Below, in pieces: positions 9,301-37,500 of a stretch of 64,000 nt of DNA. The DNA comes from Liolophura sinensis (lineage: Eukaryota; Mollusca; Polyplacophora; Chitonida; Chitonidae), in contig NW_027017972.1 in assembly GCF_032854445.1 (NCBI RefSeq), forward strand, positions 60,001 to 124,000. Reading direction: 5' to 3'. Below the pieces are notes generated by a model, which saw only the letters and a program-made list of their open reading frames with translations, did no database searches and had not been told where the DNA came from. Both the position numbers and the translations under genes were made by a program. Positions within the stretch are counted from its first letter, which is position 1. The number at the start of each line of letters is the position of its first letter.

Positions 9301-12300
9301 CTCTACTGGGCTGTGTCAGAGACCTGCTGAGGCGTCACAAACCCTCCACCTGGCTGTGTTGGAGACCTGCTGAGGCGTGACAAACCCTCTCCTGGGCTGT
9401 GTCAGAGACCTGCTGAGGCGTGACAAACCCTCTACTGGGCTGTGTCAGAGACCTGCTGAGGTGTGACAAACCCTCTACTGGGCTGTGTCAGAGACCTGCT
9501 GAGGTGTGACAAACCCTCTACTGGGCTGTGTCAGAGACCTGCTGAGGTGTGAAAAACCCTCTACTGGGCTGTGTTGGAGACCTGATGAGGTGTGACAAAC
9601 CCTCTACTGGGCTGTGTCAGAGACCTGCTGAGGTGTGACAAACCCTCTACTTGGCAATGTCAGAGACCTGCTGAGGTGCGTAGGATTATCGTTACAGGTG
9701 TGACTATAGTTCCGTCTACTGACTAATCCTAGCTAGTTTGCAAGCGGAGGTATAATCCCCGTGTATTCTGCTATGCGAACACAAAGCCGTGAAAAGCAAA
9801 AAGTTTACTGTTCAATATGTAACCTACCTCAGCGAAACAAAATCAGTTCATCCACTTGATTAAGCAGTTTAAGGCAGTAAATATGCCATCGAAGTCATCG
9901 ACTGGTATAGATGGTCGGCGCACTAAATTTGATACAGAACCTTATAGCAGATATTTTATGGCAAAACTCCACAAATCTTCAAACAAACTTCACAAACAAA
10001 CACGACTTTCTTGTGAATAAAGCACGTGCAATAGCGCGTGCCTCCCACTGAGGATATCGCCCCAACACAGCCAGGAAGCAGTCACGCCTCTGTGTGATCC
10101 TTCACACTCATATCTTATCATTTGTCGAGCTTGTATAAAAGTGATATCTAAATAACATCATGTATTTATATTACTGTAAGGACTGTGTAAGCCTCATATT
10201 GAATGAACTGAGAGAGAGAAAAAACAGCCCAAAACACACATGTTTAGGACAGTAGCAGACATCACCGGGCTGCAGACCTTTCACCGTAGGCTACTTCCAG
10301 TTGACAGACATGTAGGCTAAGCCACAGCTACCAGTGTTTTCTACCAGGAACCTGAAATGGCTGGTGTATTTTTTTTAACTTGACTGGTGTGTTTATGAAG
10401 GTTTCAAGATTAGCCTACATTATTGATTGTCTACAGACATAACTGCTGACCAAAATGCCACCTGGGAAGACATACAGAAGAGGGATTTACACAGAAACAT
10501 GAGATTAATTCGTTTCTGTTGTTCAAGATTTTTTAAACCCTGCCGTGCGTGTAAATTAATAAAGTTTGACACTTGTGAGTATTATTAACTTACTCCAGTA
10601 TCACATGCCTATCTAATTTTACTTGAACATAAAAGATCAAATATTACCATTCTATACATCCATGCACCTACTCCATTAGACTTATACAGAGTTACTGTTA
10701 CTCTACAGACCACAACCATGGAAACTAAGCTACTTGTAGAATTCCAGCTTCATCTTCTCCCAATCAAAGGTCGTTGTTGTTTACAACACCACATGTTAGC
10801 GCTCAGAAGAGTTCCTTCTCAAAACGCATTATTTGATTATTATGGTTATCATGGATACACAAACAGCCACCATTTTGAATGCATATATATGCTGGAATTA
10901 GAGACACCTATATTTTTCACTAGATCAGAGAAGATTGTTCATCCACACAGCACTCAGATGTTAGCACACAGAAGAATCCACACCCAAAGTCCATCACACA
11001 ATAACAAATTAAGGTTTAATATAGAAACTATCACCATGTTATGTTTATAATATAGATACACGCGTTGGTTAGTTTTGATTGGATGATGGGTCGCCATGGT
11101 CACCTGTGAAAGACTCTATCTTCGTCATCACTTTCTTCCGGGTCCGAATCACTATTGCTGTAATCAAGGATGCAAACTTTACCCACAAGAAAACATGAAG
11201 GGCCTCACCAGACCGTGTCGTGAGTATGAACAGGTGAGCCTATATACTAGGCTACTTCACACCGTTCTTGTGAGGACAGACTCTACTCTAAAAACAACAT
11301 GGGGGTCCTTACTAGACCATTCCTGATAACATACGTGTACACAGATGGCCTCTATACCAGGCTACTCTAATCCTACAGGTATTTGCCATGACGAGAGAGG
11401 CCATCTCACCCATTATCTCAATTAGATAATAAGATGCATGTATCTGCCTTTTTCTTGTCATATTCCTCAAACAGAATTTCAAAAAGAGAAAAATTAGATC
11501 AATTTCATCTTTAGCCTATCCTTTTATTAAAAAAAACAAAACAATGAATGTCACTACAGCAAGAGATTTACTTCGCATGCAGCCAAAGGACACGTTTACA
11601 ACTTGGCCAGAGCATGATGTTGATTACATCCTCACTTCATACACTATCTATATCTACACTTGACTACACATTCTTATACACAAGTAAAGTTCATACAGTA
11701 AGAAGGCAAAGGGCTATCAGCCATGCATACAAGGAGAAGAATACATGTACCCAATACCTGTAAGGATTCAAAGTTACATACATGTAGAAATATTCAGGAC
11801 AACTGAAAGGAACTAAGAAAACTGAAAGGAACTAAGAAAACTGAAAGGAACGAAGAAAAGTGCAGACAGAGAATTCATCTAGAGCAAATCATTTTCATAG
11901 TAAAAGAAAAGGAGGGGAAACAAAAAAAAAAAAAGCCCTGAGGACAATCATGCCAGATTTATCCTTTAAGTTTATTATTATTATTATTATTATTATTATT
12001 GTATTATGCTTAATAAACGATGCTTTTCCAATTTCACATGCAACTCTTATTAGTTTGGGTTACGTTCCATGCGATCTGGTCAACCAAAACAAATCAAGAA
12101 GGAATTTTTTGCAAAAAACATATCAAAAATGCTTTGTGGAAAAAATGAAGGTCAAGGCATAGCAGGCTTTGTCTGAAGACACAAATCCAAATGCATCACT
12201 GAGCATAGAAACATTGTACAACGCCATTACATCCAAGTTCCATAAATCACTGCCACTCAACACATATGTGTATTCACAAATTTATGATTGAATATTTTAG

Positions 12301-13191
12301 GAACCATTGAGTTAAGTCCTACCTCAGAGCTCCTTCCTCCCCTGTATCATCATCATCTTCTTCCGTTTCTGTCTCTGTTTCTTCTATACAAGCTTCCTTC
12401 TCATTGGCTGATAAAAAAGAAAAGATTATGTTTATGCCAATTTCATTGGCTGCTAGTGTGTCAAGAGTTGAACCATAACAATTTTTGTGTGTCAATAAAA
12501 ATTTGCCTACTCTATCACTCTTTAAGAGCATTATTGTTAAACTAAAGTTGCTTTCTAAGTTTTGGTGTGTTTCCCACCTGACTTTTGGTGCATATGGACT
12601 TAAGACATGACTAGATAATTTTTTCCAAAATTCTTACTTATCCCAATCATCAATAGGGGTGAGGCTTGGAGGGTGGGGGTTGGGGAGATCTCAATACTGC
12701 TGAAAAGTGAATGAGTTTTGCCTTCGCTATGTGTTAGTGAAAGCAATAACCATCAATATTTATTTATTTATTTATTTATTTGATTGGTGTTTTACGCCGT
12801 ACTCAAGAATATTTCACTTATACGACGGCGGCCAGCATTATGGTGGGTGGAAACCGGGCACAGCCCGGGGGAAACCCATGACCATCCGCAGGTTGCTGGC
12901 AGACCTTCCCACTTACGGCCGGAGAGGAAGCCAGCATGAGCTGGACTTGAACTCACAGCGACTGCATTGGTGAGAGGCTCCTGGGTCATTACGCTGCGCT
13001 AGCGCGCTAACCGACTGAGCCACGGAGGCCCCCATAACCATCAATAGGGGTGAGACTTGGAGGGTGGGGGTTGGGGAGATCTCAATACTGCTGAAAAGTG
13101 AATAATGAGCTTTGCCTTCGCTAAAATTGTAATACAGAAAGTCTTTCTCAAAAAATTTAGTCAAGTACATCTTAGTCCTGGTAACGATCAT

Positions 13192-13226
<35 letters not shown>

Positions 13227-16200
13227 AACAACAACTGAAGAAAGAACAAATAAATCTTAGTTTGAAGAGATGATCTTTCGATGAGTAAATAAAAATTTGT
13301 CTACTCTTTCATCTGAAGCCAATAAATAGACGGACACACTGACAAACTCCAAAAGAATATTGGCCAAATGTTACAAATATCAGCTTCACTTACATTTTTT
13401 CAGCTCCTCCTCCATCTTTGCCTTGAGTATATTACATTTCATATGTTCTGGCGGAATAGCCGTCGCCCCTCCTGCAAACTTGATCTGGTTGTTAATAAAA
13501 CTGTTCACATCTTTGGGAGGCTTGGACACCACAGGTCCTGGTCGGTCCAGTCCCTTCATCTTGGCCGCAGCTAGCTCAGAGGCCTCTGCCAAGAACAAAG
13601 CATAAATAGCCATAGTATTTCCCCCCTTTTGTTGTCAAGACAAATTATCATTCTCTGTGTGTGGTAATCTACATGTAAGAGGAAGATGTGACGGCCAGGA
13701 ATTCCAAGTCTGGGTTATGCCACAAAATACACCACCTGCATTCACCAGGTAGACAACTTAGATTTGGTAGCAAGGCTACCAAAGAGCTCACCTGTAGGGG
13801 ACACAGGAATGAGAAACTTCAACTCAATACATAAATACTGAAGTCATGAATTTCCGCTCGTGAATTTGGTAATGTTCGTAATTTATGGTAATTAATATGC
13901 ACACAAAGCATGCACCAGCGATGGAACATTCCCATTGTGTCACTGAGCTTTATGTGAAACTTCAGGTCAATACATGCTGAACTTTTTGAGATACCACCCC
14001 TAACATGTTGTTTAACCATGATTCTAATACACAGTACACTAAGTCAGGAATTTAGTAATTTACTGTATTTGATATGTACACACCGAATCACAATGGAATA
14101 TCCCCCGCGAGTTATTGTGCTCTACATAAGTGCAAACCCTGATCTCAACACCTACACCACCCAAACATCTTGTTTAACATTGCTTTCCCTGTTATAAGAC
14201 ACCGACGGTCATGGTATAACGTAAGCTATGGCTATACTTTGTACAGGTGAGATAAAAAATCATCAGTAAGGGAAGCTGGCAGCAGTGGTATAAGTGAAAT
14301 AAAACACCAAGCAAATAAATAAATAAACAAACAATGTATAAGGTGTATGCATAATTCAGAATCAAGCAAATTGTGTTACATCAAAAATGCTAAACTTGGT
14401 GAATTACAGTAATTTTTCTTTCTCGTAAGGCTATAAATTAACTGAAGCCAAAATTGCATGTACATGTACCACACGTACAGAAATAAATTATTGCCCCTAC
14501 AGAGACAGCACACGTACCTAAGAGACTAAGCTCTGGGATTGGCTGATGAGGGGAGGGCGAACTGACAGACGAGGAGGCAGACTGATCCGATGACTGTGAC
14601 GGAGTTCGACCTTTAGCCGTCGCCTTGATCAGATTATCCAATCGCTCCATAGCCGAGACAGATGTTGTAGCTTTGGCAGTGCTCCCATTGGCCACAGTCA
14701 GGTTTGACGCCTCCTCTTCTGCCTTCTGGGAGGACTGAGCTGCAGGTAGTGGAGGCGAGGGAGCCGACGGCTTAACGCTGGGCTTGGGGGCAACAATGGG
14801 TGCGGGTTTGGGCGTCGTCACAGTAGCTGTCGTCTTGACTTCAGACTCGGCCTTTCTGCAATTTATTGAGTCAAGATTAAATATGGCAACATGGACAACA
14901 TCAATCTTAATTGATGTTTTTCGAGCAGAGTAAACTGTCAATGTCAGCGGGTATAAGAGCAAAACTTGACAATCATCTAATCTGTGTGAAAAGCAGACCA
15001 TTTCAGGAAAAAAAAATATATAAAGATCAGATGAAATAAAAATATGATATTTAGTGTTGGTGTCACCTTATCCAAAATTGCAAAAGAACAATTTTAACAA
15101 ATTTTAACAAGTAATTAACAATTTTTTGGTCATATGATTATTATATGAAGTTACAACTTCCTCTTTTAAGGTCTTAGGTGTGACTCGAACCAAGATTGAC
15201 CCTGGATCTACCTCTCCCGAAGCGGACGCTCTACCAACTGTGTTATCAGGGTCGCCCTAGGCCTTGAGAATGTTTATACAAAAAGAATCTAGGCTGGGAT
15301 TGAACCTGCATCTGATCTAATGTAGCTAGTGAAAGCCAAGGCAAGCGCCTTAATTACTTGGCGCCAACATGCATGATTTAGTGTCAGCACCAAAAGGTGG
15401 GATGTCTTGTCTAACAATAGTGTCCTCATCAACTTACAACTGTTTACTTAGGCTTTACAAAGAGTTTCTTCAAATCAGCCATTTCGACTACCACATTGTG
15501 TAAACCACAGTTCAAACAGGCTTACTTGGCGTTCCTTTCACGCTCCCGTTGGCGTGCTAGCTCTGCCTCCTTCCGCTCAAACGTTGTGCGTCTTGAATAC
15601 CTTTGGCTGGGCTTGCGCTCAAACTTGACGCTCCTTCGAGCCTTGTTCATGGTGGCAGTCTGGTATTCTGTGTGCCCGCTTGATCAGCAAACAGGTAAGA
15701 TACGCAATTAATCCTTGTTACTGCTTTCCAAAACCGTTAATTGTGTCATTAGGAAGATGTAGAGAGCATTGTATATTGTAAAGGAATGTTTCAGTGAAGA
15801 CTGCTGAAAGCGGGGAATTAAGACACCTTAAAGGTTCACGAACTACAACATACAACTTTCAGTGTATTTACTTCCTCTATTAATTTTTGTCATGATGCGG
15901 AATTTCCAGTTTTGTTTTTTTTTTTTCAAGAAAATCCTGATGGCAAAGTCTGAAAATCGGCCAAATGACAGAGTGAGTGCTTGGGATTTAACGTTGTACT
16001 TAACAATTTTTCAGTTCTCAGAGTGCATGTAACGTTCCACTTTGTTGCAGTACAGATTTTCACTGCTCTTTTACCAAGTGCTGCCTGACTGAAATGACTT
16101 ACCAATGGCAAGTAATTCACCTCACCAACACCCATACTGATACGGATCTCTTTCAAGGTCTTAGATGTGACTCGACCCAGGAATGACCCTGGATCTACTG

Positions 16201-19200
16201 CCCCAGAAGCAGACGTTCTACCAAACCATCAGGGCCGGTCCAAATGATAGAAAATGTTCATGTGTTGGATATTTATTTATTTATTTATCTATTTCATACT
16301 CAAGACTTATTTGGTACTCAAAAATATTGCACTTATAGGACAGCAGCCAACATTATGGTGGGAGGAAACCGGTCAGAGCCTGGGGAAACCCACAATCATC
16401 CATGTGTTGGATCACCTATCAAAAAAATTCACAAGATTTATGGGTCACCAACTGCACTGTAGTACAAAAATTATAGAAAGGTGAATAGCTACAAATCACA
16501 CAAAATTACACAACATTTTTCGTAGACATTAGTATAACTGGTGGATTCACGGGTGAAAAGTTTCATGAAATTACATGTATCAGTGAATCATTATTTAGGT
16601 TACTGGTATTCTGCAAACGTTACTGAAATATTACATGTCTGATGTAACAAGTCATCTTCAGGGCAGCATACATCCACTCTTCAGTCATTGTCTACATATC
16701 TTCACAGATTCCCTGTACATGTTCCCACACAGATCTGACTCATCTATACCGGAAACGAGAGCCCACACCGATCTGACTCATCTATACCGAAAACGAGAGC
16801 CCACACAGATCTGACTCCTCTACAGCGGAAATGAGAGCCCACACAGATCTGACTCCTCTATAGGGGAAACCAGAGCCCACACAGATCTGACTCATCTATG
16901 CCGGAAACGAGAGCCCACACAGATCTGACTCATCTATACCGAAAACGAGAGCCCACACAGATCTGACTCCTCTATAGGGGAAACCAGAGCCCACACAGAT
17001 CTCACTCATCTATACCGGAAACCAGAGTCCACACAGATCTCACTCATCTATACTGGAAACCAGAGCCCACACAGATTTGACTCACCTATACCGGAAACGA
17101 GACCCCATTCTGAAGAAGTTCTGTCTGCGAGACCCCGTCCTGCCGGGTCCCTTGAGACGAAAGAAGGCATGGTGCTCAACCGCACACTTCCACAGGTGTT
17201 TACAGGCTTTCTGGTTGTGCAGACGAAACACAAACGTATGCTCGTGTTCCTGACCCTGAAACAGGAAAGGGGAGTACACGAAAGGTTTCAAGGTTGGATT
17301 GTTGAATAATATAACCCAAAACTTTCATTTTTATAGGCAAATAATTGTCACAAAGTATTACTTCTGATGTAGACTTTAACATTTTTCCATTAGGATATCA
17401 CAAAAACTGGGGAAGTGAAAACACTTGTCTAGGGTCAAAAGACGCTCAGAATAAGGCAAACTGAGCAACTAAGCCAAGGAGGAAATGTTAGGTAATTTAC
17501 CATAACTGTGTAACTTATTAAAAGTTACCAAATGAATGATTGGTTTAATGTTTACACATGAGCCTTCAAGTTGCTAATAAGTGGGGCATGATTTATGCTT
17601 ATATCCCATTGTTGTCTCTGTACTTGTCAAACAATTATCTCGGTGTCGGAAATTAAATCTATAGAGATGACTTCATGGCATGATCACGAATATTTTACTC
17701 ATACAACAGCAGCCAGCATGGCCAAGCCACGGAAAAACCCACAACCATCAGCAGGTTGCCAACAGACCTTCCCATATAGGGCCGGAGTGGAGGCCAGCAT
17801 AAGCTGGACATAAACAAACTGAGACCACACAGTCACTGTGCTGTATTAGCATGCTAACCACACCTCCACCCTCTATAATGCCAACACTTACATAAACAAA
17901 CTGACTGCGACCACACTGGTGGGTGGCTTCTCAGTCTTTGCACTGTGTTAGCATACTAACCACTCCTCCACCCTCTATAATGGCTTCTCAGTCTTTGTAC
18001 TGTGTTAGCATACTAACCACTCCTCCACCCTCTATAATGGCTTCTCAGTCTTTGTACTGTGTTAGCATGCTAACCACTCCTCCACCCTCTATAATGGCTC
18101 CTCAGTCTTTGTAGTGTGTTAGCATGCTAACCACTCCTCCACCCTCTATATTACTGTCACACCAACACTTACATCATCATCATCCTCCACTACAATAAGT
18201 GTGAGTTTCTTCCCCCTGAAGTCCAACTTAGTCATCTTTGGCCTGCAACAAAGAAAACGATCACTGGTATAATTTTTATCTTTTGAATTTTCTTCAAATT
18301 GGTGCATGCTGTCATTCTCAGTGTAGGGATGTCTTTGCCTTCATTTCCTTCACACTATTACATCTTGCCATAACTGTTCTCTATACATGGATTTCTTAAA
18401 TAACATTATTCTTTCTTTTCATACTCTTCATTACACAGATTTAACTTCACCCACTTTCTTCATGTTATTCATTGTCATATTCCTTACCTGACTTTCCTTG
18501 CCTTATTCCATGGTACCATACTTCATACGTGGACTGCTTCACTTACAAAACCTGCTTCACCTTGTTCCATGGTGCCACACTTCATACATTGAATACTTCA
18601 CTTACAAAACCTGCTTCACCTTGTTCCATGGTGCCACACTTCATACATTGAATACTTCACTTACAAAACCTGCTTCACCTTGTTCCATGATGCCATACTT
18701 CACACATTGAATACTTCACTTACAAAACCTGCTTCACCTTGTTCCATGGTGCCACACTTCATACATTGAATACTTCACTTACAAAACCTGCTTCACCTTG
18801 TTCCATGGTGCCACACTTCATACATTGAATACTTCACTTACAAAACCGGCTTCACCTTGTTCCATGGTGCCACACTTCATACATTGAATACTTCACTTAC
18901 AAAACCTGCTTCACCTTGTTCCATGGTGCCATACTTCATACGTGGACTGCTTCACTTACAAAACCTGCTTCACCTTATTCCATGGTGCCACACTTCATAC
19001 ATGGACTGCTTCACTTACAAAACCGGCTTCACCTTGTTCCATGGTGCCATACTTCATACATAGAATACTTCACTTACAAAACCTGCTTCACTTTATTCCA
19101 TGGTGTCATACTTCATATATAGAATACTTCACTTACAAAACCTGCTTCACCTTGTTCCATGGTGCCATACTTCACACATGGACTGCTTCACTTACAAAAC

Positions 19201-22200
19201 CTGCTTCACCTTATTCCATGGTGCCATACTTCATACATTGAATACTTCACTTACAAAACCTCCTTCACCTTATTCCATGGTGCCACACTTCATACATTGA
19301 ATACTTCACTTACAAAACCTGCTTCACCTTGTTCCATGGTGCCACACTTCATACATTGAATACTTCACTTACAAAACCTGCTTCACCTTATTCCATGGTG
19401 CCACACTTCATACATTGAATACTTCACTTACAAAACCTGCTTCACCTTATTCCATGGTGCCACAGTGAGTGAGTGAGTGCTTGGGGTTTAACGTCGTACT
19501 CAACAATTTTTCAGTCATATGACGACGAAGGAATCATTAGGGTGCATGTACATGTAATGTACCTCCTTGTTGTAGGACGGATTTCCACCGCTCTTTTATT
19601 TAGTGCTGCTTCTCTGAGACGACTTACCGAAGGCAAGTAAGCCGCCCCGCCCGAGCCATTATACTGATACGGGTCAACCAGTCGTTGCACTATCCCCTTC
19701 ATGCTGAACGCCAAGCGAGGAAGTTACAACTTCCTCTTTTAAAGTCTTAGGTGTGACTCGATCAAGGATTGATCCTGGATCTACCGGTCCCGAAGCGGAC
19801 GCTCTACCAACTGTGCTATCCAGGCCGGTCTCCATGGTGCCACACTTCATACACAGAATACTTCACTTACAAAACCTGCTTCACCTTGTTCCATGGTGCC
19901 ATACTTCACACATGGACTGCTTCACTTACAAAACCTGCTTCACCTTGTTCCATGGTACCATACTTCATACGTGGACTGCTTCACTTACAAAACAGGCTTC
20001 ACCTTATTCCATGGTGCCACACTTCATACACAGAATACTTCACTTACAAAACCTGCTTCACCTTGTTCCATGGTGCCATACTTCACACATGGACTGCTTC
20101 ACTTACAAAACCTGCTTCACCTTGTTCCATGGTACCATACTTCATACGTGGACTGCTTCACTTACAAAACCTGCTTCACCTTGTTCCATGGTGCCATACT
20201 TCACACATGGACTGCTTCACTTACAAAACCTGCTTCACCTTGTTCCATGGTACCATACTTCATATGTGTACTGCTTCACTTACAAAACCTGCTTCACCTT
20301 GTTCCATGGTGCCATGCCTCATACATGGACTGCTTCACTTACAAAACCGGCTTCACCTTATTCCATGGTGCCATACTTCATACATAGAATACTTCACTTA
20401 CAAAACAGGCTTCACCTTATTCCATGGTGCCACACTTCATACATAAAATACTTCACTTACAAAACCTGCTTCACCTTGTTCCATGGTGCCATGCTTCATA
20501 CATGGACTGCTTCACTTACAAAACCTGCTTCACTTTATTCCATGGTGCCATACTTCATACATAGAATACTTCACTTACAAAACCGGCTTCACCTTATTCC
20601 ATGGTGCCATACTTCATACATAGAATACTTCACTTACAAAACCGGCTTCACCTTATTCCATGGTGCCATACTTCATAAATAGAATACTTCACTTACAAAA
20701 CCTGCTTCACCTTATTCCATGGTGCCACACTTCATACACAGAATACTTCACTTACAAAACCTGCTTCACCTTGTTCCATGGTGCCATGCTTCATACATGG
20801 ACTGCTTCACTTACAAAACCGGCTTCACCCTATTCCATGGTGCCCTTCTTCACACATGGACTGCTTCACTTACAAAACCTGCTTCACCTTATTCCATGGT
20901 GCCCTTCTTCACACATGTACTGCTTCACCTGCTTCACCTTATTCCATGGTGCCCTTCTTCACACGTGGACTGCTTCACTTACAAAACCTGCTTCACCTTA
21001 TTCCATGGTGCCCTTCTTCACACGTGGACTGCTTCACTTACAAAACCTGCTTCACCTTATTCCATGGTGCCCTTCTTCACACGTGGACTGCTTCACTTAC
21101 AAAACCTGCTTCACCTTATTGCATGATGCCATACTTCATACATGGACTGCTTCACTTACAAAACCTGCTTCACCCTATTCCATGGTGCCATACTTTATAC
21201 GTGGACTGCTTCACCTACAAAGCCTGCTTCGTCTTATTCCGTGGTGTTAAACTTACCAGAAAAACAGTCCAATTTTCTGTTGCCCCTCAAAAACCAGAAT
21301 TCCTGTTGGCGTTAGACCAAGGGAATATTCCTGTCCGTCACGGCCCTGACAAATTAATTAAAAGAAAAATAATATAAACTTCAAAATCAATCACCAATGT
21401 TTTATAAATATGCTCTCCCGTTGGCACCCCTGTGTAATGAATGTGTTGCATGTAGTTGTATGTTGTTTTGGATAGTTTTTGTACTATTCTAGTTTTAGAA
21501 AGCGATACAACCACTGCTATAAATGGCTTGATGTCAATTTTTTCAATTCATTATACATAAATAATCGAAAACTGATATTTCAAACATAAAATTCAGGGCC
21601 TTTAACAGTTTAAGAATCATTCAGGACTTTTCTCAGTGTAAAATTTTCTACATGTATGAAATTATCAGATGAACATATGAATTCATGTGTATCTAATACA
21701 AGAAAGTTTCCAAAGTATGATTTGGCCAATCATGAATTTCATGTAATCATTCAGTATTAATACTGTAAAAATGTACATTACCACATATTGCCAAAATGTT
21801 TGACAATAAATATCAACGGCTGCAAAACAACATTTCCTAAAACCTACTTCTTTCAAAGCATCTTCAAGTACACAAACTTCAAATTTAATTGAACGTTAAT
21901 ATAAAGGCTTAGCCAAATGAAACAATCTCATTCTGCCAACCTACCTTGCCCACATCAAACTGTGCAATGATGCTTGTAAAGGAACAGTGTGCTTGTACAA
22001 TGTACACACAAATGTAAGTGTAAACAAAAGTCACAGACTACCGTAATACTCCCAAACATTCCACCAAGAAGGTACAAAATACCCATAGATTTTTATAACC
22101 TATAAGACATGGCTTAGTTATTTGATAATTTCATTTAAATTTAACACTCCAGGTTTCTAGCTAGAAAATATTATTCAAACTTTGTATGAAGATTTAACAA

Positions 22201-25200
22201 TTTCATAAATGATTCCAATTTTCGAAAAAATCCAAACATTTACGGTACCAATATTATCTTCATAATGACTAAACATGTTGATTTTTTCAATATGCATTGA
22301 TCTGGCAGACAGTAGACAGTAACACTGTTCATTAGTCTAGACCATAGATGCATTTATAATGCACACACATGGCAAATTATGTCAACAAAATGAAATGACA
22401 TCCCACTTCTGACACCATCATAAAAACTACTTACTGGGTTCTGTTTTATCATAATGAAAACCACAGAAACTGGTCAAATACATGTAGGAAGGAATCTGTC
22501 TTATCTGAAGTCTATAGCTTATAATCACATACATGTACATGGAAGAACTTTCATCACAGAACTGGGTCAAGTACAGGAGAAAAATTCATCCTTTGAAATC
22601 ACTGAAACAACACAACCCCCACCACCCCCTCCTCCAAATTCCCAGAAAAGAATCTGTTATACATTATCAACATGTCGATACAGCAATCTTCTCTTATTAT
22701 TCTCTACAGGACTCACCATGACATAGTGCATGTCCACTCCATACATCTCCAGCCATTTCGCCTTGTTTAGGTAGTTCAGCTCTGCCTGGGCTGGTGTCTG
22801 ACCACTGAAGGACAACACAGTAACACCGTACAATTTATCAGGGGATTAGCACAACAACATAAATAAGTCTATATTTTTAAGCCATGGTTCCACATACATG
22901 TCTAATGAAAAATGATTCTGGGTTTAAGTTGATATACTCAACATTCTGCTCGCATGTTTTACATGATACTGTAATTTCTTTGAACTTACAGCACATGTAC
23001 TTCTCTCATTGAGACTGTAACTGACATTACTGAGAAATGAATAACGTGATCACACTGTGACTTACTTGAGCTTCTGGTACTGTTCAAACACGGCCAGTTC
23101 AAAGTCCTCAGTCTGGTTTGGTATAAATCTGAACTCCGATATATACCCTGGGGTGTGGACTGTACTGTCATAGTCTCCTAACTCCGCTGTAAAGCACAAG
23201 ACCGTACTATATGTAACACACTCCTTCACTCTCATATCTACACATTACCAGCAAATACACATGTATAGGTAGTTCTGTATGCATGTATGTGTACTTAAAG
23301 TATTACGTTGTACTTAACAATTTTTCAGTTTTAATTATGACAACGAGGAGTAATAAGGTATGTGTATGCATGCTGTGTCTTCTGGAGGCAGGGCGAATCC
23401 ATGCTTCCAATGTGCTGCTGCCGCTGAAGTATCATCCCGGCAACAAGTACCATTTTTAAAGTTCAAATGAAAATCTCCCGACTTCGCTTGGTGGATGCTT
23501 TTGTCCATAAGGCCACCAAAGCAGTCTTTCTTACTTCTGACAGAAACACTGATCAATCTCTGCCTGGAGATTTCTCAAAGACAGTATTTTGTTTCTGTTT
23601 ACACGTTTACTGTTCACAAGCATATGTGGAGGTATAACAACTTAACCATGTCTTGGTGTAAACTGGCAACATGTAACTAATTATTGTCTTACACTGCAGA
23701 TACTAAAAGACATTTCACCTCAAGCATGACGGTTTGACATGATGTGACCAAGAGGTTAAGCACACCAACAATCAGTAGAACACTTCCTCTCATAATGATG
23801 CTATCAAGTGGTTTACCAATTATTTGCCAATTACTTTCTTTCTCTGCTTGTAATCAACAGCTGTGGTATTGTAACTGTGTTCATCTGTTATGTCTCTGCC
23901 GATATCAAAGTTTTCAGGTAACTGAAGTTGTGGTAAATGCACATGCATCCTGATTGAGATGTAACTTTGAAGAACATGAAATCTTAACATTTGGCATTGA
24001 TCAGATTCAAGGGCATGTAGATGAAAATTAAAACTGGATTCAAATAATACATGGAAATAATAAAAGTTGCCAATATTTGAAACCTCTTTTGATCATGAGT
24101 TAAGATATCCAGAGAAACATATGTTTACCATGGCTTAATTCATGCCACAGTGCAAAAGCAGGTGCGACAGTCACAAAAATCTGCTGCTTTTCCCCAAACC
24201 ATCACTTTCATTTATACCCAGCTTATACATGTATGTGTGTAGCCTAAAATATGCCAACATGCTGTTAGCTGGTTAAGAGGTGAGACGTCCCACAGGGATC
24301 TCCCCCTAAAGCCCCTCACACAAGCTGGTATCATGTCCCTACTCAGTAGCCAGGCCTGACCACAACTGTTAATCACTTCCTATGGCCAGGCCTCAGGGCT
24401 GTCACTGACCCCTAACATCTTCATAATCCCCTCAATCCAGGCCACTGATACAGGCCCTGAGGTTTTGTGGTTAAACACCCACTTCATCAAAGACTGGAGA
24501 AAATCGTGTTTGAACAGTCTAAAGGTAGCAAATTTGTCAGCTTTGCTCAGGCCAAATCCTACAGACGAAAGCACACGTATACTACATACATTTACATACA
24601 ATGTATCCATGTAAAGTTCATTAAAGTTCCCTGTAACACAGCGTACAGTACCTGTAATCAAGATCACTGCTCTTGATACATGCCCAGGTATGACAGCAGT
24701 TCTCCAAAGTAATGATTCTACATGATCATGGCCCTACACACGTATTCAGAGTTGATGAAGTTTCTTCTGTACAGGTACAGGTACAGCTGTGCCCTCATTC
24801 TGTGTGTTCCACTGATCTTGGCAAGGTGTGTTGAAGCTCGTTTGGAAGGTACATGTATTTATTTACTTATTTGACAGGTGTTTTACCCTGTACTCAAGAA
24901 TATTTCACTTTTACAACGGCGGCCATCATTATGGTGGGATAAAACCAGGCACAACCCGGGGGATACCCATGCCCATCTGCAGGTTACTGGCAGACCTTCC
25001 CACTTACGGCCAGAGAGAAAGCCAGCATGAGCTGGTTTTGAACTCAGAGCAACAGCATTGGTGAGAGACTCCCGGGCCATTGCGACATGCTGGCGTCTTA
25101 ACCCCCTTTGCCCACAGAGTACATGTAGGATGGTATGATATCCTACTGGAAAATGATAGTTCTTGAACTGAAAGAAAATTTTTACACCATTTACAAAATG

Positions 25201-28200
25201 CACTTTTGGGGCATTTACTGTACGTCTTTCTCAGATGAAAATAATGACTGCCACATAAGAACTATATATAAGATATAAATGATATACAATCTTACACTGG
25301 ACAGCAAAGGCAGATAACTCCACGGCCACTTCAAACGCACACGGCAGTCTCTCTGTCAGGATGTCCTCCTTAAGCTGTAGGAAGAACTGATACCTACAAA
25401 TTACAGACACAAACATTTTTCTCACACAAAATGAACATTCAAACTGTAAATTGAGCAATATCTCTGAAATACCGAGAACATCAGGTACCTGTGAACTCGC
25501 TCGCTGATCTATTTTTGCTAAAGGACGGCTCTAGCAGCAGCTGGTGGGGCCCTTGATCTATGAGGTTGGAGGTTCAAATCCAGCCCTCACTATTCAGAGA
25601 AGGTTTATCAGAGGGTGATGATAAACAAAACACCATATGTATCGATAGTGTATTTCTCCTTAAGTTTCAGAAACACATAAAAGCCTTAAAATGACACTTT
25701 TCGATCCTTAAGTTTTTGTTGTAAGAAACTACATGCAATGACAACACAGAAAAAAGGGATACAGAATCGACGCTGATTGGCTGACAGCAGAGGCAGGTTT
25801 TCCTGAGTCAAATCTTGAAGTCTTTGCCACACTTGAATAAATGTTCCCTACCTAGAATTCAGCTTGGGCAGGACATAGCCTGGACTTACCTGTCTCTCAC
25901 ACCAGCCAATCAGAATCGAATCTGTATCCTTTTATTAGTGGCCTTTAATAAGGTGAATGTATCAATCAGATTCAAGCAAAATGTGACTCTCACAAAATTC
26001 ACTTTTCAGTGAAATCTGAGATAAAGACAGATTATCTTAATCCCAGGTGAAATACAGAACAGTTCAACTCTAGAGCTATTAAGAGTTTCATGCATGTAAC
26101 AACATTATGTACAGGTGTCCATGTGTAAAGGATCATCTTGGGCGTGACTTTTGTTCCACAGCTACATATAACTGATGGTGGGCTATAGTGTGGACACAAA
26201 ACCACCCATGTGAACTATAACTTGAATGTCCACCTCAGTTATATTCATGTACAGGTAAGTACTGAGTTGAAACAAGGTCACAGAGCTTTCTCACCAAGTA
26301 CAAAGACACTAAAGAAACATGAATCACATGTGATAAAAAAAAAATACAGCGAGACTTTATACATGAGCTGTATGAACATTCAAGGTAAATCAAGCTTTGC
26401 GGTGAAAAACTCGTGTAGATTGTGACGTGTGTGTGTGGATCAGGTGGCAACGTTATGGGCATAATAGAGGCACACAAAAAATTGATGTAAACCATCTCTG
26501 TGTGTGGGAACAATGGATGCAGTGTAACATATGTCATCTCTCCTTAAACTCAGCAGGTTATATGGCTTCTGTATCAGATGAATGTGAGACAAAGGAACAG
26601 CGCTGCATGTAAAGATATGGATATTTTCAATCTTCTGAATCAACGCATCCATGTGGGTTACCATAACTCCTCAACCTTTCCAACTGCCTCGGCAAACCAA
26701 GACTTTCTGCAAGAACTATTACGCGAACATAAATAATTTGCCCAGTATTATGAAGTACATGTGGCATCTTTAATGACACCAACAAATCATTTTTAGCGTC
26801 ATTTTCATAATACGTGTAAGCATATGCATGAATTCCACTGAAAATATGCTTAAGTGGTTGAAAAGGTTGAGATTTTACAGTACACAGTACATGTAGTCTG
26901 TATACAGTATATGTAGTCTCTGTACAGTATACAGTACATGTAGTCTGTATACAGTATATGTAGTCTCTGTACAGTACACAGTATATGTGGTCTCTGTACA
27001 GTATACAGTACATGTAGTCTCTGCACAGTATACAAGAACATGTAATTAATATAGAGCACGTGTGCATGAACAGGTGCCCTGCGGCAGTGAAAATGGGCAG
27101 GTAGTTATTATTAAAATGTTTTTTTCATTCTGCAATTCAACCCAAAGCATGAATATGATAACAGAGCAGGGAAGTTTCCAGTTATCCAGGTGTAACAATT
27201 AAGTGACAAATAGGACAGTAAATCATTTCAGCTAGACACTGTTTTGCCTTTGCCCATGGATGAACACGTGTGTAGGGTATGAGTGACATGACACCGTTTT
27301 GCCTTTGCCCATGGATGGACACGTGTGTAGGGTATGAGTGACAAGACACTGTTTTGCCTTTGGCCATGGATGCACACGTGTGTAGGATATGAGTGACACG
27401 ACACTGTTTTGCCTTTGGTCATGGATGTACACGTGGGTAGGGTATGAGTGACAAGACACTGTTTTGCCTTTGGCCATGGATGTACATGTGGGTAGGGTAT
27501 GAGTGACACGCCACTGTTTTGCCTTTGCCCATGGATGTACACGTGGGTAGGGTTCGAGTGACACACCACTGTTTTGCCTTTGGCCATGGATGGACACGTG
27601 TGTAGGGTTCGAGTGACACACCACTGTTTTGCCTTTGGCCATGGATGTACATGTGTACAGGGTACGAGTGACACACCACTGTTTTGCCTTTGCCCATGGA
27701 TGTACATGTGTGTAGGGTATGAGTGACATGACACTGTTTTGCCTTTGGCCATGGATGTACACGTGGGAAAGGTTTGAATGGCACACCACTGTTTTGCCTT
27801 TGGCCATGGATGGACACGTGGGTAGGGTATGAGTGACATGACACTGTTTTGCCTTTGGCCATGGATGTACACGTGGGAAGGGTTTGAGTGACATGACACT
27901 GTTTTGCCTTTGGCCATGGATGCACACGTGTGTAGGATATGAGTGACATGACACTGTTTTGCCTTTGGCCATGGATGCACACGTGTGTAGGGTATGAGTG
28001 ACACGACACTGTTTTGCCTTTGGCCATGGATGGACACGTGTGTAGGGTATGAGTGACATGACACTGTTTTGCCTTTGGCCATGGATGTACACGTGGGAAG
28101 GGTTTGAGTGACATGACACTGTTTTGCCTCTGGTCATGGATGCACACGTGTGTAGGATATGAGTGACATGACACTGTTTTGCCTTTGGCCATGGATGCAC

Positions 28201-34518: not shown

Positions 34519-34557
<39 letters not shown>

Positions 34558-37500
34558 ACTGAATCTCACGCTTTCTTCACAGCTCAGACAATATTTATGG
34601 AGTCCAATGGGTGTGTGTGTGTGTGTACTGAATCTCACGCTTTCTTCACAGCTCAGGCAATATTTATGGAGTCCAGTGTAGATATTCCTTCCTCTCGGAT
34701 GCAATTTACCCACCCTAATGCTCTGATTATGGTGATAATAAAAGTTTTGTTATGTTTGCAAACACCGAAGTTTCACAACAAGTAAACAATTTTCCAGACT
34801 ATGCACATACATATAAATGTCAGAAAAACACCTGGATGACCTTGTGTAAAGGCTAATGAAATAGGGCTGTTCCATTATGCATATAATATGCGCACACGTA
34901 TGTGCCTGTTGCTTGATGGAAAATCATTGACACTGTGCTAGTATGTCACTCTAAGTTGTATTAACGTGTGAAGACATTCATTTCTGCTACCTTTTTTCAG
35001 ACGTTTATGGTAACCACTTCCCCTGGAGTTTTGACCCGCATTTAATGTCACACTGACAAACACATGGAGTTCTGATATTATAAACACACAGCATCTGGGG
35101 TCAACAGCCTGCCTACCTCTTTATAATTACACATGTATGTACATGTAACGAGTTTCTCTTCCACATGTCCTAATAAAAAAACATCCCACACATTGCATGT
35201 ACAGAGCTTTCATTAAAGATTAAATATAGGTACATATGTACAATGTACAGGTAGGTCACCTACGAAAACTTAACACAGATTCTGAACACACCTGTAGCCC
35301 TAAAACCTTCAGAAATTAAAGGCAACAAAAAGCCCAAACGGTTCCAGCAGATTTGGACTTTGAAATATACCTGCACATGTACATGTGGATGCAACTGTTT
35401 TTTATCTGGAGCTACACGTCAAAGTGCAGTCACGGAGAGCCTGGCGTCATCGACATAAATATGTAGTACATTTGGAACACAGTAAAACAAATACATGTAT
35501 TTTATTTTATTTAATTGGTTGGTGATTTATGCCATATTCCAGAATATTTCACTCATACAACGGCTGCCACCATTACGATGAGAGAAAACCAACCAACCAG
35601 GACATACAATGACAGTAACCATACACGTACATTGAACCTAGAGAGGAGCAGTGCTCCCTCCACCCAGGACATACAATGACAGCAGCCATACACGTACACT
35701 GTGTCTGGAGAGGAGCAGTGCTCCCTCCCACCAGGACATACTTTTACAGCAGCCATACACGTACACTGTGTCTGGAGAGGAGCAGTGCTCCCTCCAACCA
35801 GGACATACAATGACAGCAACCATATATGTACATTGTATCTAGAGAGGAGCAGTGCTCCCTCCAACCAGGACATACAATGACAGCAACCATACACGTATAC
35901 TGTATCTGGAGAGGAGCAGTGCTCCCTCCAACCAGGACATACAATGACAGCAACCATACACGTATACTGTATCTGGAGAGGAGCAGTGCTCCCTCCACCC
36001 AGGACATACAATGACAGCAACCATACACATACATTGTATCTAGACAGGAGCAGTGCTCCCTCCACCCAGGACATACAATGACAGCAGCCATACACGTACA
36101 CTGTGTCTGGAGAGGAGCAGTGCTCCCTCCAACCAGGACATACAATGACAGCAGCCATACACGTACACTGTATCTTGAGAGGAGCAGTGCTCCCTCCAAT
36201 CAGGACATACATGTACAATGACAGCAGCCATACACGTACACTGTGTCTGGAGAGGAGCAGTGCTCCTTCCAACCAGGGCATATAATGACAGCAACCATAC
36301 ATGAATTATGAATGAAAGACATGCATTCATGAGTACAGCATAAAACCCCAACCAAATTATTGCAAAAGTAACACTACTCCATGCAGCATCCACATACGGA
36401 AAATGACCTAAAGTTTCGTCCTGGGACTCGGAAAGTGTATCCTAGGGTTCATTTCGTCCATTGTGGTTGTTACTGACTGAGCTCTGCAGGGGAGCACAAG
36501 GGGTGGTCAGGAGATTATATGGACAGTTCAATAATGTAATAAACAAGCTCACTCTTCACTGAGCAGTCTATGCTCCTACCACCAACAGCTCATTTTTTCC
36601 TCAGTTTAAATTAAAATGATTTTAGCACCTGCACTTTGCAACAGGCTGACTGTTTTATTATCGTCATTTTGTCATAAATGGGAAGTTGGAAGAAAACTCC
36701 GGAGATTAAGCGTGACTAATCAGTACCTTTCAGCAGGGCTCTGTGTATATAAATCTGTAGCAAAATGTAGCATGCGGCAAATCAATACTTGTAAACTAAG
36801 CCCACCAGCAGACGAGATGATGTCAAATTACGATCAACGTGACTCCTACACATATGCATTTGCACCGCTGCAGCTTAACATAGCTTGTTCATTCTGGTGT
36901 AATTTTAAGGAAAGTCAACTTCCACCCAGATTTCGTAAACATGAATACGTAATTTACTTAATATTTCAGAGTCCCCTCAGATGAAATTTTAGTCATATAG
37001 ATTGGTTTTATCTACATGTAGATAGATACAAGCCACTTACAATCACAGGACTCGACATTTCCACGTGTCTACCCATTGATCAAGTGACTATAGCTGGTGA
37101 AAGGTAACATAGGCCTAACACTATTAATCTGATCGTCTGCAGCGTACATTCTGCATGTCCATTTCAGAGAGTGCTTGGAATTTAAAGGTTTGCAATAGAC
37201 ATAGCATGTCTTAATACTTTCTTCGATTTCACTCATGGGTATATTTAGAGATCTACATGTAAGCCTACAAGTAGGGAGACCTGCACACCTCACTGTCAGT
37301 GACTTGGCCCCATGTGCCGAGGATTAGCAACCAGAACTACTAAGTGCCATGCAGGGTAATGAAATGGGCGGGGTGCTAATTGCTGTCTTCTGCCATCTCG
37401 CCGATAACTCAGATCATGCGAAGGTAAACGACAGTAACTCAGGTGCGACACTTCAGGTCATTTACCGCACATGAACTTGTGACATACCCAATTTTTTCAG

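Follow-up and report, generated by a model that had tools for sequence, protein, structure and literature searches.

Tandem copies of an exon–intron boundary have been described in lancelets under the name of “mirage” minisatellites, with examples in Adh3, in the globin genes BflGb6 and BflGb9, in PGBD5 and in the gene for troponin C (PMC3087553, PMC3902484). In the parts of these reports that deal with the arrays, their length is variable between haplotypes, regular splicing is said to be undisturbed, and somatic instability is reported for the Adh3 mirage (PMC3087553, PMC3902484). The AG or GT dinucleotide is kept by many, although not all, of the copies, and this is, as far as that account goes, a property of mirages and not part of their definition (PMC3087553). 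A comparable situation is found in human genes located in segmental duplications, where the relevant portion of the report describes variable internal tandem repeats at exon–intron boundaries (PMC2812944).

The array considered here lies in the genome of the chiton Liolophura sinensis, whose assembly first appeared under the name Liolophura japonica, since corrected to L. sinensis (PMC11068029; PMC12441733). The reading frame of mitochondrial COX1 is open under genetic codes 5, 9, 13 and 24 and not under code 2, in keeping with an invertebrate, although a lancelet, which the anatomy of the array had first suggested as the source, would be compatible with it as well. Like the lancelet mirages, it is made of tandem copies of an exon–intron boundary, in ten units of 20 exon and 18 intron bases each, so that the repeat unit spans the boundary. 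Its 38-bp unit falls within the range that the lancelet reports give in these parts (10–72 bp in Adh3, 150–160 bp in the globins), its copy number also varies by haplotype (nine against six extra units, provided that the two loci are alleles, as argued below), and the unit at the boundary escapes homogenisation, as is likewise stated for BflGb6. What sets it apart is the state of the splice signal, which many lancelet copies are described as keeping, whereas a GT is present in none of the 15 extra units of this mollusc. The human minisatellites are similar in having units of ~30 bp at exon–intron boundaries; there, however, altered gene structures and new introns with transcript support are reported (PMC2812944), whereas the chiton copies are intronic and have dead donors. 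Nor does the array fit a model in which introns are gained when a proto-splice site is tandemly duplicated, since none of the 15 extras would be usable as a GT donor at the copied position. The kind of array is thus already known from lancelets and from human duplicated genes, and molluscs may be a new phylum for it, as far as we have seen; the frequency of junction arrays in a mollusc may also be new. Among the titles and abstracts listed by literature searches, in which subscription journals are thinly covered, none reports junction-spanning arrays from chitons or other molluscs.

The window, by which we mean the whole stretch of 64,000 nucleotides analysed (C33:60001-124000, in a contig of 190,692 bases), carries a gene that we take to be EPB41L5-like. 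One of its exons matches FERM_C in Pfam, and the joined pieces of the surrounding exons match FERM_M, FERM_C and FA; NCBIfam gave no match. The closest solved structures to the protein are FARP2, PTPN3 and band 4.1-like protein 3. A genome-wide search for the FA family returned three places, the window's own FA exon not among them, and its results were not used. The exon ends in TTTCCGGTATAG and is directly followed by the donor GTGAGTC. FARP2, which is also a FERM-FA protein, has the same residues as the end of this exon (GS-FRY, with SG following in the next one), and for this reason the exon is likely to be the source of the array units, in agreement with the original prediction that the array derives from a coding exon/intron junction.

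Tandem Repeats Finder (TRF) places the 38-bp array at 16724-17107 of the window, with 10.1 copies. When the array is cut in register with the junction, each unit takes in the last 20 bases of the exon, and not ~21 as had been estimated, although the exon end was rightly included. The junction unit (unit 0) reads GGTATAG|GTGAGTC on the minus strand, so that the functional junction proposed earlier, TATAG|GTGAGTC, can be placed at 17086|17085, and the extra units continue from it without a gap down to 16726. Their consensus shares 35 of its 38 positions with the junction unit, and single extras share 31–35; since the likeness is this close, the repeat unit is the junction itself and a chance resemblance is dismissed, as expected if the units copy the last bases of an exon of the presumably EPB41L5-like gene together with the first bases of the intron that follows. 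At the donor position the nine window extras read ATGAGT (six units) or AGGAGT (three units), and none has a GT. The absence of GT from all of the roughly nine copies had been correctly noticed, whereas a few of the letters quoted around it differ: units 1 and 2 have ATGAGTG at the donor, and the bases before the site are CATAG in unit 5 and TGTAG in unit 7. An intact GTGAG is found in none of the 15 extras, that is, the nine in the window and the six at the second locus. Elsewhere in the gene, in the preceding intron (window 17881-18175), a copy of the intron start that matches it at 13 of 14 bases (GTAAGTGTTGG, 17894-17881) and has an intact GTAAGT lies past the separate 57-bp array.

Table 1. 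Features of the junction array, its surroundings in the window, and junction arrays found elsewhere in the genome
Feature	Position or place	Strand	Remarks
Coding exon, 170 bp, of a putative FERM-FA protein of band 4.1 type	17086..17255	-	ends ...TTTCCGGTATAG; FERM_C 6e-11; exon identical in second haplotype
Unit 0, real junction unit	17068..17105	-	20 exon + 18 intron bases; donor TAG|GTGAGT intact at 17086|17085; U1 duplex -10.8 kcal/mol
Nine extra 38-bp junction copies inside intron	16726..17067	-	donor dead in 9/9; U1 duplex -3.1 to -4.7 kcal/mol
Units 3-5, three-unit stretch equal to length difference from second haplotype (by inspection)	16878..16991	-	adjoins units 6-9
Separate array, 57 bp x 4, ~22 bases inside preceding intron of the same gene	17924..18150	-	Tandem Repeats Finder
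Junction arrays at donors	L068, L083, L088		survey
Junction arrays at acceptors	L075, L077, L115, L128		survey
Donor array at neighbouring exon	L106		outside the 7/120

The genome searched comprises 609,464,459 bases in 632 contigs, and among the matches listed one match to the array lies outside the window, at C11:30719619-30719901. At this second locus (L001, from 30719634 onward) the exon and the junction unit are identical to those of the window and are followed by six extra units, all of them lacking the donor GT. Inspection shows that three more units would turn the C11 copy into that of the window, in which units 3 and 6 are identical; the arrays measure ~270–384 bp. With the focal and 57-bp arrays left out, the two loci diverge at 1.5–1.7% of aligned bases, gaps aside (window 11459-16993, 16838-17982 and 21845-22927), and three further long stretches, arrays included, are 92.6–94.3% identical. 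We infer that the loci are alleles and that their difference in length would correspond to a single three-unit block. A recent paralog is a conceivable alternative for the C11 locus, given that an assembly gap interrupts C11 and that the three long stretches align at no more than this identity; the divergence outside the arrays, however, is close to the heterozygosity of 1.24% stated in the genome report (PMC11068029), and speaks for alleles. The C11 sequence stops at a run of 200 N (C11:30715445-30715644), which is the very point at which it ceases to resemble the window (window 22927), and for the following 2.6 kb (window 22927-25500) the matches listed by the genome search are, besides C33 itself, dispersed repeats alone. 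C33 overlaps the end of the C11 contig at the gap and extends past it, so that it may hold sequence missing from C11. Among these repeats, window 24845-25103 is an element of ~230–260 bp with dozens of matches across many scaffolds among those listed, most of them at 84–88% identity and the weakest at 72%.

The composition of the extra units bears directly on how their donors were lost. Position +1 is A in all 15 extras of the two haplotypes, and +2 is T in 11 and G in four. The junction unit differs from all of the extras at only three of the 38 positions (-18, +1 and +9), and for this reason it is seen to have stayed outside the homogenisation of the array. Just one of these fixed differences (+1) concerns the donor, and that at -18 is synonymous, falling on the third base of a Gly codon. 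U1 pairing, expressed as duplex energy, weakens from -10.8 kcal/mol at the real donor to between -3.1 and -4.7 kcal/mol at the extras, and no other GT inside the array agrees with the donor consensus in more than five of nine positions. Coding frame and donor strength both point to 17086|17085 as the site where splicing most likely occurs.

Other arrays of the same anatomy were found in a survey of 120 exon places of this genome (24 globin, 63 P450 and 33 kinase, some of them neighbouring exons of one gene), consisting of family-search matches shorter than ~460 bases with no internal stop, which were taken in rough list order and blind to repeats, neither at random nor to the exhaustion of all qualifying places. 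An array was counted if its period was ≥10, its TRF score ≥40 and its distance from the match ≤120 bases, so that junctions lying farther out escape. Such arrays were present at 30 of the 120 places, and all 30 were read. Seven of the 120 (95% interval 2.4–11.6%) have an array across a splice junction, at donors or at acceptors (Table 1), among them L115, in which only five exon bases are shared, and L068, with two copies only. In 19 of the 30 the array is near, and not across, a junction (L015, L032, L036, L040, L043, L046, L049, L053, L070, L071, L079, L096, L099, L107, L111, L114, L116, L118 and L120). L060, whose array spans a stop codon, L064, with an array inside the exon, and L066, with a 19-bp duplication inside the exon start, were left out of the seven.

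Together with L106, these junction arrays share their genome and their anatomy with the focal array, and differ from it in the fate of the spare sites. The real site was taken as the one joining the coding exon, and copy positions were read by hand. Across the eight arrays the dinucleotide is kept by 11 of 12 extra donors and 29 of 33 extra acceptors, that is, by 40 of 45 sites, with five dead, against none of 15 in the focal extras; the counts for L077 and L128 are lower bounds, as these arrays run past the fetched piece, and the tally leaves aside matches outside the TRF arrays (dead ones in L075, L088 and L115, a live one in L083) as well as the shortened final units of L083 and L106, in which no donor is included. 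Comparing live donors in the nine window extras (0/9) with those of the other arrays (11/12) gives a Fisher p of 3e-5, although copies are not independent and, counted by array, the comparison is of one with four. Among the arrays seen, spare donors that are all dead are peculiar to the focal array.

Several of the surveyed places deserve a brief description of their own. In L088 (C10:22583626-22584835) a kinase exon, which is presumably GRK-like, is followed by five tandem donor copies, all intact and all pairing better with U1 than the real donor. L077 (C3:13489085-13490297) and L128 (C10:7880470-7881661) carry at least six and at least nine acceptor copies, respectively, upstream of the intron end, with the AG intact in all those seen. 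At positions 791-891 of L060 (C11:21036012-21037311) a 31-bp array runs across the apparent end of a P450 coding sequence and has the stop codon within its repeat unit. Finally, the 19-bp duplication in L066 (C12:13772423-13773644, minus strand 497-535) is perfect and lies within the first part of a P450 exon; reading from the usual acceptor would cause a frameshift, but the terminal AG of the first copy could serve as a new acceptor.

Taken as a whole, the focal array is very probably a junction-duplicated minisatellite of the mirage type, in which a dead founder copy was amplified while the real donor remained in use. A 38-bp stretch across the junction would have been duplicated into the intron, and the duplicate would then have been hit by a G-to-A change at +1, losing its donor. 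It would be this dead duplicate, and not the live junction, that was amplified into nine and six extras, presumably by slippage or unequal exchange, and splicing would still proceed from the first, real donor, leaving the array as a passive, length-variable start of the intron. Parsimony favours this order of duplication, G-to-A change and amplification. Because the A at +1 is common to all 15 extras, a single change in the founder suffices, and because only five of the 45 extra sites in other junction arrays are dead, nine independent losses of the donor are implausible. Of the two routes offered by the original prediction, prior loss of the donor is thereby upheld. The other, in which copies were born with a live GT and each competing donor was then removed by selection, appears improbable. 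It accounts for the loss of all 15 spare donors and for the cost of using them, since each unit included would add 38 bases to the transcript and an in-frame TGA would come up in the codon directly past the junction; yet the recurrence of one and the same +1 change in every extra indicates one event, GT is kept by 11 of 12 spares in the four other donor arrays of this genome, U1 pairing in L088 is even stronger at the spares (-8.2 to -9.5) than at the real donor (-5.7), and the donor is only one of three fixed differences.

Selection could also have acted once, on the founder, in such a way that only a duplicate with a dead donor was able to spread. This possibility, which we consider tentative, would refine the amplification of a dead founder and is not exclusive of it. 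It is plausible because a spare donor would meet the TGA right after the junction and so cause a premature stop, and it fits the data; selection against live founders would look alike. However, three fixed differences on 38 positions have a ~15% chance of including at least one at +1 or +2, which renders such selection unneeded, and spare sites that are still live occur commonly across the other arrays examined. It is very unlikely that the dead copies are themselves functional, forming a ladder of weak sites for U1 or splicing factors that helps to define the real donor: the flanking bases are well kept among units and some weak U1 pairing is left, but recent amplification would by itself make the units alike, and the copy number is unequal at the two loci. 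An assembly artefact is scarcely credible. C33 is a small contig and HiFi coverage is low, at 14X in the sequencing details of the genome report, yet two contigs carry the array with differing copy numbers, and its length at either locus is only a small fraction of the mean read length, given in the same details as 8.3 kb (PMC11068029).

As regards the origin of the arrays, nothing in these data points to a mechanism that targets junctions. Arrays with a period ≥10 and a TRF score ≥50 cover 0.8% of the exon matches, 7.0% of their flanks and 3–4% of the sequence within 20 bases of the match edges, which approximate the exon ends; coverage thus falls from introns to exons, and no peak at junctions was found in the survey exon matches and flanks. 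Such repeats make up 23% of the window. Junction arrays look like the remainder at the edge when introns accept new minisatellites freely while coding sequence is cleared of them, and an array of the focal type has the look of a side effect of a genome rich in minisatellites. Elsewhere in the window, at 34542-34675, Tandem Repeats Finder reports a 69-bp stretch with the acceptor-like TTCTTCACAG twice in tandem, and no exon was identified there.

The survey suggests that junction arrays are frequent in this mollusc (7/120), which would offer many natural tests of splice-site choice among near-identical sites. The focal array is a tidy example, for which the simplest account is that a single event silenced the spare site and that copying followed. 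It is conceivable, if rather doubtful, that junction-spanning minisatellites are a standing feature throughout chiton genomes, affecting about one exon in 20, with mostly live spares that make up a large store, variable in length, from which new splice forms and new introns could arise, and that arrays of the focal type are silenced in one step by amplification of a dead founder. As a separate observation on the same assembly, contig C99 contains seven COX1 places at steps of ~15.5 kb, that is, mitochondrial genomes arranged head to tail, which is probably an assembly artefact.
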